In this document: positions 6,250-50,909 of the stretch, in pieces
Position numbering within the stretch: the stretch's first letter is position 1
Layout: every line of letters starts with the position of its first letter
Assembly (NCBI GenBank): GCA_902598735.1
Contig: CACKCM010000001.1
Coordinates: 62,001-126,000 of the forward strand
DNA: 64,000 nt
Reading direction: 5' to 3'
DNA from: an uncultured Pelagibacteraceae bacterium
GTDB lineage: Bacteria > Pseudomonadota > Alphaproteobacteria > Pelagibacterales > Pelagibacteraceae
Position numbers and translations under genes: made by a program
The notes under the pieces: generated by a model
Told to the model about the DNA's origin: nothing
Database searches by the model: none
Seen by the model: only the letters and a program-made list of their open reading frames with translations

Positions 6250-6357
6250 TTATTTTTTTCTTCTTTTAAAACTTCCTTTGCCTTTTTTTGGCTTAACAAT
6301 TCTTTTCCTATATTTATTTGTAAAAAGATCTATTGCTATCTTGTTTCTTTTTTTCAC
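6250..6357 (-). CDS. 35-aa ArfA-like (alternative ribosome-rescue factor A) mini-protein, not in supplied ORF list
   Basis: GTG start at 6357 overlaps the upstream TGA stop; VKKRNKIAIDLFTNKYRKRIVKPKKGKGSFKRRKK*; resembles the ArfA core [29 protein letters not shown]. Confidence 0.7.
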   Translation of the reverse strand: MKKRNKIAIDLFTNKYRKRIVKPKKGKGSFKRRKK

Positions 6358-6959
6358 AAATAATATCCCTTTTTATTATTGAGTATAAATTTCTCGTCCA
6401 AGAATTTATCTGATATTTTTTTTCTCAATCTATAGATATGTGTTTCAACGGTATGAGTATCTGTATTAGATGAATAATTCCAAACAGATGCTAAAATATA
6501 ATCTTTTGAAATTGGAGTTTTACTTTCTAGGAATAATTCAAGAAGTTGAACTTCTTTTTCAGTTAAAATAATAAAATTATTTAATTTAGATAACCTTTTC
6601 TCGTTTTTATTTAATAAATAACTCTTAATCTGAATTGAAGAATTTTTATTGAATTTTTTTTTAGCAACTGTGCTCTCTACAATAGCGTTAATTTCTTTTA
6701 AAGTGGTAGGCAGTGATAAATTAGCATCGTATAGATTTTTTAAGTCTCTTTTTTTTCCTAAACATATTTTTATACCCTCACTGCTATCAATATACGCTTT
6801 TTGTTTCTTATTTGACAAAACATCAGTATGAAACAATATAATGCTCGGTTTTTCATTATTATGATCTAAAAAAGGATTAAACTTTAAAAATATTTTTAAT
6901 TCATTTAAAGTTGAAATAAATGAAGTGGGGCCTAAAATTTGAACATTTAAGTTATGCAT
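6354..6959 (-). CDS. Orphan OmpR/PhoB-type winged-helix regulator with degenerate receiver
   Basis: C-terminal LTEKEVQLLELFLES...VETHIYRLRKKI...KKGYYL is a Trans_reg_C wHTH; N-terminus lacks the phospho-acceptor Asp. Confidence 0.8.
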   Translation of the reverse strand: MHNLNVQILGPTSFISTLNELKIFLKFNPFLDHNNEKPSIILFHTDVLSNKKQKAYIDSSEGIKICLGKKRDLKNLYDANLSLPTTLKEINAIVESTVAKKKFNKNSSIQIKSYLLNKNEKRLSKLNNFIILTEKEVQLLELFLESKTPISKDYILASVWNYSSNTDTHTVETHIYRLRKKISDKFLDEKFILNNKKGYYL

Positions 6960-13440: not shown

Positions 13441-14425
13441 AAGTTACATAATTGAGAAAAATTTTGACTTGATAGATAAAAATATTATTTTATTTTACGG
13501 TGAAAATTTAGGATTAAAAAATGAGTTTAAAAACAAGATCAAAAAAAAATATAAAAAAAATAATTATGAATTGTTAATTTATGAGCAAGAACAAATTTTA
13601 AAAAATCCAAATTCTTTTATCAATGAGATCCAAAGCAAATCATTATTTCAAAAACAAAAAATTCTTTTTGTTAATAACGTTTCAGACAAATTTCTAACAA
13701 TATTTGAAGAAATTAAAAAAAAAACGGATAATGAAAAAATTTTTTTATTTTCTGAAATACTGGATAAAAAATCAAAGATTAGAGCATATTTAGAGACATC
13801 CAAAGATTTTGGCATAGTCGCTTGTTATGAAGATAATGAGTTGGGTATTAAGAAATTAATAAACAATAAATTAAGAGATTTCTCAGGCCTATCAGTACAC
13901 AACATAAATCTTATAGCTGAACATTCAAACTTTGATAGAAGTAAATTAAATAACGAAATTGAAAAAATAACAACTTTTTTTTTAGACAAAAATATCAAAA
14001 CAGAGCAGTTGGAAAAATTATTAGATACTAGAATTAACAAAAATTTTAACACGCTAAGAGATTGCGCACTATCTGGAAATAAAATAGAAACCAATAAGCT
14101 GTTAGCAGATACTGAAATAGAAGATGAAAAAAACTTTTATTATTTAAACTTAATAAACCAAAGATTGAATATGCTAAAAACTGTAAACGAAACAGCTAAA
14201 ACTTGCAGTTTGGAAATTGCAATTAATTCAATGAAACCGCCAATTTTTTGGAAAGATAAACCTGTTTTTATAGAACACCTAAAAAAATGGAGTAATAATA
14301 AGATTAGAAAAATACAGACGTCTACTTACAAAATCGAGTTGGAAATAAAATCAAATTCTACAATTAACAAAAACATTTTAATTAAAAAATTAATAGTTGA
14401 TATTTGTCAAGAAGCTAATGCTTAG
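13430..14425 (+). CDS. holA: DNA polymerase III subunit delta
   Basis: FYGENLGLKNEFKNKI..., synteny with leuS-lptE. Confidence 0.9.
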   Translation: MIYKSYIIEKNFDLIDKNIILFYGENLGLKNEFKNKIKKKYKKNNYELLIYEQEQILKNPNSFINEIQSKSLFQKQKILFVNNVSDKFLTIFEEIKKKTDNEKIFLFSEILDKKSKIRAYLETSKDFGIVACYEDNELGIKKLINNKLRDFSGLSVHNINLIAEHSNFDRSKLNNEIEKITTFFLDKNIKTEQLEKLLDTRINKNFNTLRDCALSGNKIETNKLLADTEIEDEKNFYYLNLINQRLNMLKTVNETAKTCSLEIAINSMKPPIFWKDKPVFIEHLKKWSNNKIRKIQTSTYKIELEIKSNSTINKNILIKKLIVDICQEANA

Positions 14426-15269
14426 TTAATAAATTTGAAATAAAATCGAATTGATCTAAATCTTTATATTGAATAGTAATTTTGCCAGAATTATTTTTTT
14501 TATTCATAATATTTACTTTTAAACCCAATATTTTTTCTATTCTTTCTTGAGTTTTAAGAATATTAGCATCTACGGATTTTTCTTTATTACTCCCTTTTTT
14601 TTGACGAGTTAAATATTCTACTTTTCTGGCACTATAGTTTTTTGAAACTATTTCTTCAGCAATATTAGAAGCGTTAGAAATTCCTATTAAAGGTCTTGCT
14701 TGTCCAGAGCTTAATGTTCCCTCCTCTAACATTGCAATAACATCAGAGGGTAGTGTTAATAACCTTAGAGTATTACTTATGTGACTACGACTTTTTGACA
14801 TTAATTTAGAAATACTTTCGTGATCGTAATTAAATTCTTCATTCAATCTTTTATATCCTTTTGCTTCTTCAATAGGGTTAAGATCGTCTCTTTGGATATT
14901 TTCAACTATCGCAACTTCTAATGACTCAACGTCTGATAAATCTAGTATTATAATAGGGATTTCGTGTAGACCAGCTCTTTGAGCTGCGAGCCATCTTCTC
15001 TCACCTGCTACTATTTCATATTTTCCAAGGCCTAATTTACTAGGTCTTACTGCAATTGGCTGAATAATCCCATTTTTCCTTATAGAATTAACTAATTCTT
15101 CAAGTTTTTCCTCTTTAAAATTTTGTCTCGGTTGGTATGGGTTTCGAGTTAAATCGGAGATAGAAGCCATATTATTTTGATTAGTTGGGGTTGCTTTTTC
15201 CTTAGGAGCTGTGTCCCCAAATAATGCAGATAATCCTCTACCTAAACCTTTCTTTTTTCCAGAATTCAT
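14415..15269 (-). CDS. parB: Chromosome partitioning protein ParB
   Basis: GLGRGLSALFGD; NPYQPR; VAGERRWLAAQRAG; IVENIQRDDLNPIEEAKGYKRL. Confidence 0.98.
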   Translation of the reverse strand: MNSGKKKGLGRGLSALFGDTAPKEKATPTNQNNMASISDLTRNPYQPRQNFKEEKLEELVNSIRKNGIIQPIAVRPSKLGLGKYEIVAGERRWLAAQRAGLHEIPIIILDLSDVESLEVAIVENIQRDDLNPIEEAKGYKRLNEEFNYDHESISKLMSKSRSHISNTLRLLTLPSDVIAMLEEGTLSSGQARPLIGISNASNIAEEIVSKNYSARKVEYLTRQKKGSNKEKSVDANILKTQERIEKILGLKVNIMNKKNNSGKITIQYKDLDQFDFISNLLTKH

Positions 15270-16063: not shown

Positions 16064-16681
16064 TTACTTGTTAATCTCCATCAAAATTATTTTTGAATCT
16101 TTATTTGTCATGCTGCTTTCTAATTTATAAGGGTATTTTTTTGTTTTAAAAGAATTTTTTATTTCTTCCTGTGCATTTTGACCCTTTAGAATCATTAATT
16201 TATGAGGTTTTTGGGCGATTTCACGTGAAACTTGTATTATTTGGTCTAATTTTTTAAAAGCCCTGCAAATTATAATCTCAGAATCTATAACTTCATCTCT
16301 TACATCTCCTAAAACTTCTGCATTTAAACTTAGTTCCTTAATTACACTCGTTAGGAACCTTCTTTTTACTGGTGATTTTTCGTATAATTTCACGTGAAAA
16401 GCCTTATTTTTATTGAATATTTCTACTACTAGACCCGGAAATCCTGCGCCAGTGCCAAGATCAGCCATGGAATTGAGGTTAAAATCAATAAACTTAACCA
16501 ATTGAGCAGAGTCAAGTATATGTCTATGCCAAATTTGATTTTCTGTGCTTTTAGAAATTAAGTTATAATTTTGATTTTCCTTTAAAACTAGATTTGTGAA
16601 CTTTTTAAGTTTTTCAATTGAATGATCACTAAAATTAAGACTCTTTTTAAGAATATTTATGACTTCAAGCTGCTGCATCAA
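16064..16681 (-). CDS. rsmG: 16S rRNA m7G527 methyltransferase RsmG (GidB)
   Basis: [23 protein letters not shown]; synteny with mnmG-parA-parB. Confidence 0.96.
16217..16232. promoter_or_regulatory. parS: parS-like ParB-binding site within rsmG
   Basis: GATTTCACGTGAAACT versus TGTTTCACGTGAAACA, 13/16, perfect 12-bp palindromic core TTTCACGTGAAA. Confidence 0.85.
16386..16401. promoter_or_regulatory. parS: Second parS-like site within rsmG
   Basis: AATTTCACGTGAAAAG, 12/16, perfect core TTTCACGTGAAA. Confidence 0.8.
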
Positions 16682-33475: not shown

Positions 33476-34053
33476 TTATACTGATCAATATAATTCATAA
33501 TATCCTTTACAGGTAAACCCATTATTGAATTACGATCTCCTTTTATATATTCAAACAATTCCAGCCCATCAGCTTCTACTTGATAGACGCCATAAGCTAA
33601 TAAAGTTTCAGTCTTAATTTTGTTTAAATAAGAGATAAGCTGGTAATCAGTAAAATTTTTCATTTTTAATTCAGATGTATCTGAATGATTCCATATCATA
33701 GCTCCATTCTTGGAAAAACAAACAGAACTAATTAAATAATGTTTTGAATTATTCAATTTTTTTAAGATTCTGAGTGCTTCATCTCGTGATTTAGGTTTGT
33801 TGATCAACTCATCATTTAAAGAAATGACGCTATCCGCCCCCAAAACAAGTTTGTCAGGATTTTTATTGCTCACTTTAACAGATTTAATTTCAGCTAAGTT
33901 TTTTGATATTTCCAACGGACCTGCTCCTTCTGCTTGTAAAGAATTTTTTACTTCATCTTCATCTACATTTGAAACAACTACATCACATTTTACATTGTGA
34001 TGATCTAAAATATTTTTTCTCACTCCACTTTTTGAAGCCAAAATAATCTTCAT
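33472..34053 (-). CDS. Maf-family nucleotide pyrophosphatase
   Basis: IILASKSGVRKNIL; LVLGADSVI; YQVEADGLELFEYIKGDRNSIMGLP. Confidence 0.93.
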   Translation of the reverse strand: MKIILASKSGVRKNILDHHNVKCDVVVSNVDEDEVKNSLQAEGAGPLEISKNLAEIKSVKVSNKNPDKLVLGADSVISLNDELINKPKSRDEALRILKKLNNSKHYLISSVCFSKNGAMIWNHSDTSELKMKNFTDYQLISYLNKIKTETLLAYGVYQVEADGLELFEYIKGDRNSIMGLPVKDIMNYIDQYK

Positions 34054-34868
34054 TGGTTTTTTTTAATTTCAATAATTTTTAAAATTGATGCAGCGGTCTC
34101 TTCAACAGAACGCCTAGTAACGTCTATAATCGGCCAATTATTTTTTTTAAAAAGAATTTTTGAGTCATTTACTTCTTTTTTAATATATTCAAGATCAGTA
34201 TATTCTTTAATTTTGTGTTCATTCATAATTGCTACTCTATTTCTTCTAATATCAGCTAATCGCTCAGGATCTGCTACTAAACCGATAATACAGGTTTTTT
34301 TATTTAATGTTAAATCTTTTGGAATTGTTTGCTCTAAAACTAATGGAATGTTAACTGTCTTGTAGCCTCTATTGGCTAAATAAATCGAGGTCGGTGTTTT
34401 ACTTGTTCTGCTTACCCCTAACAAGATTACATCAGCATTTTTTATATCATCGACTTTTTTTCCATCATCATGAGTCATTGTGAATTGAATTGCCTCTATC
34501 CTCTTATAATAATCATCATCTAGAACATGTTGTGCGCTTGGTTTATGTATAGCTTTTTGATTTAAAAGTTTTGAAAAACTTAGGATTAAATTCCCTAAAA
34601 CACCAAAACACGGCACTTGTTTTTTTTCGCTTTGGCTTGATATATATTTTGCTAGTTTTGTTTCTACTATAGTATACAGAATTAATGAATTTTCACAGGC
34701 AATGCATTCTTTTATAATTCTATCTATTTGCTGTTCAGTTCTTACGAAAGCATATTCCTTTTTTTCGTATTCAAAATTGGCAAACTGTGATTTTAAAGAT
34801 AAAAATATTCTATCCAAAGTTTCACCTGTAGAATCAGACACAAGATATACATTGTATTTTTCGTTCAT
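34050..34868 (-). CDS. Pyruvate,phosphate dikinase/PEP synthase regulatory kinase-pyrophosphorylase (DUF299)
   Basis: YLVSDSTGETLDRI; LGVSRTSKTPTSIYLANRGYK. Confidence 0.95.
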   Translation of the reverse strand: MNEKYNVYLVSDSTGETLDRIFLSLKSQFANFEYEKKEYAFVRTEQQIDRIIKECIACENSLILYTIVETKLAKYISSQSEKKQVPCFGVLGNLILSFSKLLNQKAIHKPSAQHVLDDDYYKRIEAIQFTMTHDDGKKVDDIKNADVILLGVSRTSKTPTSIYLANRGYKTVNIPLVLEQTIPKDLTLNKKTCIIGLVADPERLADIRRNRVAIMNEHKIKEYTDLEYIKKEVNDSKILFKKNNWPIIDVTRRSVEETAASILKIIEIKKNQ

Positions 34869-34943
34869 ATGTTTGTTAATAAATAAATAATAATCAACGC
34901 TTTTCCACCCCCTGCTAAAGGTATAAAGAAAAAATTAACAGTA

Positions 34944-34984
34944 ATTAACATTATTTGAACAATTTGTTCGATGTTAATAATGTT
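34944..34984. repeat. Nested inverted repeats in putative oriC
   Basis: Inner GAACAA-T-TTGTTC (34957-34969), outer ATTAACAT/ATGTTAAT and AACATTATT/AATAATGTT. Confidence 0.85.
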
Positions 34985-35056
34985 ATTTTACTAGTATTTA
35001 TAAGATTAATAAAGTCAGCAAATTGGGGCTTTTTTAAAAAAAATTACTAAGTTAAA

Positions 35057-35078
35057 TATGTATAAAATATGTATAAAA
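35057..35078. repeat. Two perfect tandem copies of 11-bp TATGTATAAAA
   Basis: Direct read of 35057-35067 and 35068-35078. Confidence 0.9.
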
Positions 35079-35141
35079 AGTTATACCAGCATTAAACAGG
35101 ACCTAGAACTAAAACTAACCTTATAAAAATTTTTATTAATT

Positions 35142-36146
35142 ATGAGCAATCTTAAAAAAATTTTAAAAAATAAAAATTCTTGCAAATCAGTATGGTTTAT
35201 GAGACAAGCTGGTCGATACCTTCCTGAATTTAAAAATATTAGATCCAAAAACCCTGATTTTATAAAGCTTTGCCTTAACAGCGATTTAAGTTCTGAGATT
35301 ACTCTTCAGCCAATAAAGAGATTTAATTTAGACTCAGCTATAATTTTTTCTGATATTTTAATGATACCTTACGCACTTGGTCAAAAGATAACTTTTTTAA
35401 AAAATGATGGTCCAAAACTTAGTAAATTTAAACCTAATTTGTTTTTTTCGAATTATGAAAAAGACTTTACTAAAAAATTAAGTCCAGTTTATGATGCAAT
35501 CAGAATTACTAGAAAAAAACTAGAAACTGAAAAATCATTGATAGCATTTGTTGGAGCGCCTTGGACATTATTTATTTATATGTATGGTATTAGAAAAAGC
35601 AAAAACCAAGTAGAACTAGATAAACTTAAAATTGATGATAAAAAAATAGAAATGATATTTCAGGAATTAATCAAATTCATATGTTTGCACATTAAAAATC
35701 AAATTAATGCTGGAGCTGATGTTGTTCAAATATTTGATACCTGGGCAGGATTAATCCCTACCAATAAAATTAAAGATTATTGCTTTAAACCAAATGCCAA
35801 AATAGTCGAATTTTGCAGAAAAGAAGGAATCCCAAACATTTGTTTTCCAAAAGGTATTAGAGAAAAATATGAAGACTTTAATAAGTTAGTAAAGCCTGAC
35901 GGAATAAGCATTGATTACGATATTGACCCGATTTGGGCTAGAGATAAATTAAAAAATGTAGTTGTTCAAGGTGGATTGAGCCCGTATTTTTTATTAAAGA
36001 ATGAGGAAGAGATGTTTGAGGCAGCGACGAAATATATTCAAATTTTTAAAGATATTCCCTATGTTTTTAATCTTGGTCATGGTTTACTTCCAGAAACAGA
36101 TCCTGATAAAGTAGCTAAGTTAATAAAATTTTATAGAAATTTTTAA
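35142..36146 (+). CDS. hemE: Uroporphyrinogen decarboxylase
   Basis: VWFMRQAGRYLPEF; FNLGHGLLPETDPDKV. Confidence 0.99.
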   Translation: MSNLKKILKNKNSCKSVWFMRQAGRYLPEFKNIRSKNPDFIKLCLNSDLSSEITLQPIKRFNLDSAIIFSDILMIPYALGQKITFLKNDGPKLSKFKPNLFFSNYEKDFTKKLSPVYDAIRITRKKLETEKSLIAFVGAPWTLFIYMYGIRKSKNQVELDKLKIDDKKIEMIFQELIKFICLHIKNQINAGADVVQIFDTWAGLIPTNKIKDYCFKPNAKIVEFCRKEGIPNICFPKGIREKYEDFNKLVKPDGISIDYDIDPIWARDKLKNVVVQGGLSPYFLLKNEEEMFEAATKYIQIFKDIPYVFNLGHGLLPETDPDKVAKLIKFYRNF

Positions 36147-38916: not shown

Positions 38917-39534
38917 TTATTGAATTGTTTGGTTATTAAAATTAGTTTCGTAAAGATAAAAACTAATTATATTGTCCAATGTTTCGATTTTGTCTTTAAT
39001 AGTTAAAGATTCCAAAAGTTTTTGCTTTTCCTCGTTTGTTACAGGGGATATCATTGATAAAGTGTTTATTCGCTGAGTTTTATTTAATTTATCAAATTCT
39101 CTCCAATTTAATAATAATCCACTCCTTTTAAAAAAAATTTTTGCTTTATCCATCAAATTTTGAGTATCCTGATCATCAATTGCTTCTTTAAGATCTACCT
39201 CAAATTTTTTATAATCAACTTTAAATTTTCTATATAATTTTTTACTCTCAATTTCTTCTAAGATTTTAAATCTACTCAAACCAGTTAGATTAATCAAAAT
39301 TCTTCCGTCCTTACTTTTTTGTAAGTCACTGATTTTACCCAAACATCCAACTTGATAAACTTTATTTTCATCTTTTTGCAACTGAACCATTCCCATAAGT
39401 TTGTCTTTTTCATACACATCATTCACAAGATCTATGTAACGCTGCTCAAAGATATTTAACGGAAGATTGGTTTTTGGGAAATAGATTACTCCGCTTAAAG
39501 GAAAGACAGGAATCACGTCAGGGAAATTTTTCAT
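38917..39534 (-). CDS. LON N-terminal substrate-binding domain protein
   Basis: VIPVFPLSGVIYFPKTNLPLNIFEQRYIDLV; start trimmed from 39576. Confidence 0.92.
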   Translation of the reverse strand: MKNFPDVIPVFPLSGVIYFPKTNLPLNIFEQRYIDLVNDVYEKDKLMGMVQLQKDENKVYQVGCLGKISDLQKSKDGRILINLTGLSRFKILEEIESKKLYRKFKVDYKKFEVDLKEAIDDQDTQNLMDKAKIFFKRSGLLLNWREFDKLNKTQRINTLSMISPVTNEEKQKLLESLTIKDKIETLDNIISFYLYETNFNNQTIQ

Positions 39535-39586
39535 AAGACTATTATAGTTAAATTTTTTAACAATCGATAGTGACATTTTATTAAGG

Positions 39587-49833: not shown

Positions 49834-50909
49834 TATAACTTTAAACCTGGCCCTTTCATGTAGGGAGCATTTTCATCTAAAGGCCATCTAGATTTAGCTT
49901 CGACATCAATTTTATTTAATAAATTTTTTTTAAATCTTTGAATACCAGCCCAGGCAATCATAGCAGCGTTATCACTACAAAATTTTAAATTAGGATAAAC
50001 AGTTTTAAATCCCATTTCATCTGAAAGTTTTTTTAAATTTTCTCTTATCGAAATATTAGCAGCCACACCTCCAGCGACAACTAAATTAATGTTCGATGTA
50101 TTAATTTTTTCTTTAAACATTTGAATTGCAATCTTTGTTTTTTTATAAAGAATTTTGTTTATGGTATTTTGAAAAGAAGCTGCAAGACTAAATTTTAATT
50201 CATCGTTATCATTTATTTTTTTTGACTCTCTTAAGACTGCAGTTTTAAGCCCAGCAAATGATAAATTACAACCTGCTTTATTTATAATTGGTTCAGGAAG
50301 CTTAAAAAAGTTTTTGTCTCCCAATTTTGCAAATTTCTCAACACTCGGTCCACCTGGATATCCTAAATCTAGCATCTTTGCGGTTTTATCAAACGCTTCG
50401 CCTAAAGCATCGTCGATTGTGGTTCCTAATTGTTCGTACTCATTAATATTTCTAACTATTAAAAATTGGGAGTGACCTCCAGAGATTAATAAAAGCAAAT
50501 ATGGGAATTGAATTTTATTCTCTAATCCTGGACTTAGAGCATGACCTTCTAAATGATTAACTGCAACGAATGGCTTATTTGAAAATGCAGCAATTGTTTT
50601 ACCTATGTTTAGACCAACTGTTAAACACACAATTAAGCCTGGACCTGCAGTAGCTGCAACCCCATCTATTTCATCTAAAGAAACTTTACTTTCTTCTAAA
50701 GCAGCTTTGATTATGTATTCAATATTTTCTAAATGCGCTCTAGCTGCTAATTCAGGCACCACTCCTCCAAATTTTTTATGCTCTGAAATCTGACTTGAAA
50801 CGATATTAGACAAAACATCTGCAGTGCCCTTATCATTTTCCCTTATTACAGCTGCTGCAGTTTCATCGCAGCTTGTTTCAATTCCTAAAAATGTAATCTT
50901 TTTTGTCAT
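49833..50909 (-). CDS. tsaD: tRNA N6-threonylcarbamoyladenosine synthase TsaD
   Basis: FLGIETSCDETAAAVI; VNHLEGHALSP; LLISGGHSQ. Confidence 0.98.
   Translation of the reverse strand: MTKKITFLGIETSCDETAAAVIRENDKGTADVLSNIVSSQISEHKKFGGVVPELAARAHLENIEYIIKAALEESKVSLDEIDGVAATAGPGLIVCLTVGLNIGKTIAAFSNKPFVAVNHLEGHALSPGLENKIQFPYLLLLISGGHSQFLIVRNINEYEQLGTTIDDALGEAFDKTAKMLDLGYPGGPSVEKFAKLGDKNFFKLPEPIINKAGCNLSFAGLKTAVLRESKKINDNDELKFSLAASFQNTINKILYKKTKIAIQMFKEKINTSNINLVVAGGVAANISIRENLKKLSDEMGFKTVYPNLKFCSDNAAMIAWAGIQRFKKNLLNKIDVEAKSRWPLDENAPYMKGPGLKL

Follow-up and report, generated by a model that had tools for sequence, protein, structure and literature searches.

Background

The replication origin Cori of Caulobacter is flanked by hemE and COG1806. 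This type of origin was defined for Caulobacter and Rickettsia and has been applied to relatives of Wolbachia; CtrA sites vary among its accepted examples, down to none (PMC1914354). The origins of Wolbachia and of Anaplasma/Ehrlichia resemble the SAR11 region described here in being intergenic, adjacent to hemE and of similar size. In Wolbachia, in contrast to SAR11, COG1253 replaces COG1806 as the other neighbour and variable CtrA sites are kept. In the literature library searched, no paper mapping a SAR11 origin was identified.

The window, that is the whole stretch of 64,000 nucleotides analysed here, corresponds to bases 62001-126000 of a 185 kb contig (G000:C1) from an 889 kb SAR11 assembly of 20 contigs (84% complete). 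It includes an intergenic gap that shares with Caulobacter crescentus Cori and the Rickettsia prowazekii origin the flanking gene pair, several DnaA boxes, a high AT content, a nearby parABS system and a dnaA gene located elsewhere. It differs from both by the absence of a strict CtrA site and of GANTC, by an IHF-like site that is not conserved and by boxes shifted to AT-rich words. This gap very probably corresponds to the oriC of the chromosome and to the positional orthologue of Cori. Its features are listed in Table 1.

Table 1. Features of the putative origin region, in window coordinates
Feature	Position	Strand	Evidence
parB, origin-proximal partition gene	14415..15269	-	PF02195 1.7e-36; TIGR00180 over cut-off
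Candidate parS GATTTCACGTGAAACT, inside rsmG/gidB	16217..16232	.	Best match of the contig, 13/16; core TTTCACGTGAAA; two relatives have it at the same place
PPSR/DUF299 (COG1806), left flanking gene	34050..34868	-	NF003742, 314 bits, E 1e-93
Putative chromosomal origin (oriC), whole intergenic region	34869..35141	.	DnaA-box density maximum; length constancy
DnaA-box-like TTATTAACA	34874..34882	-	8/9 match; mean column conservation 0.97, 23 genus members
DnaA-box-like TTTTCCACC, weakly conserved	34901..34909	+	8/9; column conservation 0.77, not above background
Tandem array of three weak DnaA-like sites AAATTAACA, TAATTAACA, ATTTGAACA, 10-11 bp apart	34932..34961	+	Conservation 0.85, 0.96, 0.91; sites picked after inspecting the alignment
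DnaA-box-like TTATTAACA	34972..34980	-	8/9 match; conservation 0.91
DnaA-box-like site, genus consensus TTATAAACA, degenerate here (TTATAAATA)	34995..35003	-	Genus conservation 0.99
DnaA-box-like TTTTATACA, first of a pair 11 bp apart	35059..35067	-	Conservation 0.97
DnaA-box-like TTTTATACA, second of the pair	35070..35078	-	Conservation 0.92
Weak DnaA-like site CATTAAACA	35090..35098	+	ACA end conserved
GC-rich 4-nt spacer GGAC	35099..35102	+	GC-rich in most genus members, within a 22% GC region
DnaA-trio-like run CTA GAA CTA AAA CTA ACC TTA TAA and start of the AT-rich unwinding stretch	35103..35126	+	Three-base periodicity
hemE, right flanking gene	35142..36146	+	TIGR01464 E 2e-91, over cut-off

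Gene context and length of the gap

The gap is exactly 273 bp long and contains 21.6% GC, compared with roughly 30% across the window. An ORF scan identifies it as the longest non-coding gap of the window and, contig end excepted, of the 185 kb contig. With a different ORF setting, the same contig shows one gap of 360 bp at about 50.4 kb. The latter (G000:C1 about 50429-50789, window -11571) lies between divergent genes; it has the same length in two same-genus genomes and measures 363 bp in G050, a complete Pelagibacter-type genome of 1,199,990 bp (1.2 Mb) from another genus of the same family.

On the left, PPSR/DUF299 is accompanied on the minus strand by a Maf-like gene, aroE, coaE and dnaQ, while hemE, hemH, hemJ and rho occupy the plus strand on the right. 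The sequence adjoining rho (38917-39576) encodes a 219-residue protein whose match to Lon protease is confined to the N-terminal part of that enzyme. An Rfam scan of the window retrieved a single tRNA and nothing within the gap.

HemE shares 68-69% identity with the proteins of named relatives (uncultured Pelagibacteraceae, plus a single-cell genome of Candidatus Pelagibacter), which assigns the window to SAR11. Our family sample includes 42 distinct loci, all of which carry the divergent PPSR/DUF299-hemE pair, with a gap of 269-289 bp and HemE identities down to 48%. Constancy of length was rejected as a proof by itself. It is weak evidence because other gaps of these genomes likewise hold their length, both within the genus and, for the 360 bp gap, as far as G050.

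DnaA-box-like sites

Boxes were defined by the pattern TTWTNCACA with at least 8/9 matches on either strand; a stricter pattern, TTATNMACA, was also used. The gap contains seven 8/9 matches to TTWTNCACA at five separate places, two of which can be read in two registers. Shuffled gap sequences contain 1.23 +/- 1.11 matches and none of 2000 shuffles reaches seven. No perfect TTATNCACA box occurs in the gap. The motifs quoted in the initial annotation were all recovered at their positions: TGTTAATAA at 34874 and 34972, TTTTCCACC at 34901, TATGTATAA at 35057 and 35068, and AATCAACGCTTTT at 34892. The two TATGTATAA sites are present as quoted, but the register that is conserved is TGTATAAAA (35059-35067 and 35070-35078).

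The recurrent box words are TTATTAACA, TTATAAACA and TTTTATACA, together with a tandem set ending in TTAACA or GAACA and spaced by 10-11 bp. The box at 34995 is nearly invariant in the other members of the genus and carries a G-to-A change (+ strand) in this genome. The site closest to hemE (35090..35098) corresponds in other SAR11 genera to TTATTCACA or similar words, the perfect TTATTCACA being found in four other-genus gaps. The DnaA protein of this genome retains the domain IV stretch RRFANRDHTTVIHA.

Two same-genus genomes (G162 and G163) were compared by contigs of 231 and 325 kb. When segments of the same length are considered, the gap is the unique maximum of 8/9 box density in the 185, 231 and 325 kb contigs, and these three contigs contain no second box cluster. 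With the stricter pattern, no place in the 1,199,990 bp of G050 other than the gap has four boxes; with the looser one, the gap is not the top place of that genome. The 42 family gaps contain a mean of 3.8 boxes versus 0.77 expected. Conservation is also box-specific: in the alignment of 23 genus members, column agreement reaches 0.879 in boxes defined before alignment versus 0.755 in the remaining columns; of 269 circular shifts, not one equals this. Adding the boxes recognised on the alignment gives 0.920 versus 0.716 outside.

IHF, CtrA and CcrM sites

The IHF-like site AATCAACGCTTTT had also been counted as a part of the origin. This site, a single 12/13 match, is present and HU/IHF-family genes exist in the genome, but its position is not kept in relatives; it was set aside as unconserved, and this part of the proposal is not supported. 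IHF-like matches occur somewhere in 22 of the 23 genus gaps, a frequency to be expected of DNA this rich in AT.

The strict CtrA site TTAA-N7-TTAA is absent from the gap; its occurrence in the gaps of relatives is variable and no commoner than that of the N6 spacing. A CtrA gene was not identified among the OmpR-type regulators examined, which comprise PhoB and further proteins that score under every curated cut-off. This is suggestive of a genome in which CtrA is likely missing. GANTC (CcrM) sites are also absent from the gap. SAR11 is reported to possess a CcrM homologue (PMC3973325).

Putative unwinding element beside hemE

The basal unwinding layout consists of a DnaA box, a GC-rich spacer and DnaA-trios (PMC8287927). 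The system is recognised by a box, a spacer of up to 16 bp and at least three consecutive trios. The GGAC spacer and the CTA run that follow the last box of the gap likely correspond to a DnaA-trio unwinding element. In the genus, the frame starting four bases past the box at 35090-35098 has a middle T frequency of 0.55, versus 0.35 and 0.15 in the other frames, and the first trio has a middle T in 84% of members. In other genera, 50% of trios in this frame have a middle T, compared with at most 35% in the remaining frames. The run is imperfect in this genome, with a middle T in every second trio only. Three consecutive trios (3'-NAN-5') are absent here and present in some relatives, such as locus L040, while the frame preference extends across the 42 gaps.

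The arrangement resembles the basal unwinding system of Bacillus subtilis oriC, where a box is followed on the same strand by a 4-nt GC-rich spacer and a CTA-led run of three-base periodicity. It differs by its imperfect trio run and by the weakness of the adjoining box in this genus.

parABS, dnaA and the inverted segment

In eight complete genomes of the family, parS lies 6-18 kb and dnaA 60-71 kb from hemE. The degenerate parS of this genome is found 18.7 kb from the gap and dnaA 72 kb from it. In this genus the outer bases of parS are degenerate (GATTTCACGTGAAACT), the core TTTCACGTGAAA is kept and the site is located about 1 kb from parB. A 201-residue protein encoded on the minus strand (6354-6959) has an OmpR-type DNA-binding C-terminus, the match covering only residue 78 onward; several relatives have a comparable divergent regulator near parB.

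Proximity of rho and parAB to the origin, as first suggested, is true in general, but in this genus parAB lies 19-20 kb from the gap on its opposite flank, that of PPSR. Gene-by-gene comparison with G050 indicates that a segment of about 19 kb (window about 20-39 kb), which contains the gap, is inverted as a unit between collinear flanks. The inversion accounts for the different location of parAB, on the side of PPSR here and on that of rho in G050. Since an inversion that contains the origin would keep fork directions, it presumably has no explanatory power for the skew offset described below.

GC skew and alternative origin positions

A skew pointing to dnaA had been put forward as evidence that could refute an origin beside hemE. 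The check failed to refute it, the maximum being opposite hemE and not dnaA. The cumulative GC skew of G050 is maximal at 673.6 kb; the position opposite the gap is 667.0 kb and that opposite dnaA about 730 kb. In G035, a comparison genome from a second genus of which 880 of 1160 kb are covered, the maximum is at 493 kb, versus 510 kb opposite hemE and 580 kb opposite dnaA. Of the genes, 63% are oriented away from hemE, and the GC skew of noncoding DNA has a normal polarity, with one positive and one negative arm. For single contigs, the raw cumulative skew was dropped, as it is too noisy and dominated by gene strand. The same applies to dif as a terminus marker, Pelagibacter being reported to lack dif/Xer (PMC2731167).

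A finer test relied on fourfold-degenerate sites corrected for gene strand. The best switch was located at 64 kb in G000, 127 kb in G162 and 116 kb in G163, where the gaps are at 97.0, 96.9 and 113.7 kb, respectively. The switch is broad and is displaced by 15-35 kb toward the PPSR side in two of the three same-genus contigs, and the bootstrap interval of G162 (112-146 kb) excludes the gap. In G050 the gap, at 67 kb, falls within the supported range of 30-70 kb. The joint skew fits of G000, G163, G162 and G050 all give a stronger rejection of dnaA than of the gap. Skew therefore supports the region without pinpointing the gap, and the offset in this genus lowers confidence in the gap as origin. 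The GC sign of fourfold sites is opposite to that of noncoding DNA, and fourfold skew partly reflects codon use. Fourfold sites of G050 are richer in A and (Ala, Gly, Thr) in C in leading-strand genes than in lagging-strand genes; in noncoding DNA of this genome, G is in excess on the leading strand, as is usual.

The displaced switches, together with the location of parB/parS about 20 kb on the PPSR side, could mean that replication of this genus initiates 15-35 kb to that side, near parAB, and that the gap is no longer an active origin. We consider this improbable: besides the codon-use effects mixed into fourfold skew, no other box cluster exists in the three same-genus contigs, the boxes of the gap remain under constraint, and the homologous place flanks the gap on the opposite side in Pelagibacter-type G050, whose skew does not support it. 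Even less probable is an origin located, as many bacteria have it, at dnaA or upstream of this gene, with the hemE gap persisting as an old relic. The gap upstream of dnaA, with 212 bp and 19.8% GC, is among the longest of the contig, but it contains no 8/9 DnaA box, and both the joint skew fits and the position of the GC-skew maximum speak against dnaA. Least probable of all is a mere bidirectional promoter region of PPSR and hemE, kept for transcription control and containing DnaA-like words by chance, since the box count exceeds that of shuffles and of all other places in the contigs and conservation is concentrated in box columns, even though divergent genes require promoters and several other gaps of the genus are also constant in length. 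Promoters and origin may be present in the gap together.

Proposed origin function and significance

The origin initially proposed between DUF299 and hemE is supported by features shown here: synteny with Cori, box density, box-specific conservation, parS proximity and a skew maximum on the opposite side of the chromosome. That the gap binds DnaA, is unwound and actually initiates replication is what we infer from them. DnaA would bind AT-shifted boxes grouped in a compact array, namely TTATTAACA, TTATAAACA and TTTTATACA together with weaker TTAACA sites 10-11 bp apart. From the last box, it would be guided across the 4-nt GC-rich spacer onto the DnaA-trio-like single-strand element beside the hemE start. 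Opening of the duplex at this element would then lead to helicase loading and bidirectional replication.

The SAR11 gap is probably an expected, yet now well-defined, case of the hemE/COG1806-type alphaproteobacterial oriC. Tentatively, SAR11 origins may have a minimal DnaA-only design of nearly fixed length (~270-285 bp), combining AT-shifted boxes with a trio element, free of CtrA/CcrM control, and carried on a 19 kb core that has turned around as one block with respect to parABS between genera. The 273 bp candidate and its conservation-ranked boxes make direct DnaA-binding and minimal-origin tests possible. SAR11 are among the most numerous cells of the ocean, and estimates of their growth in situ from metagenomes require a known origin position.
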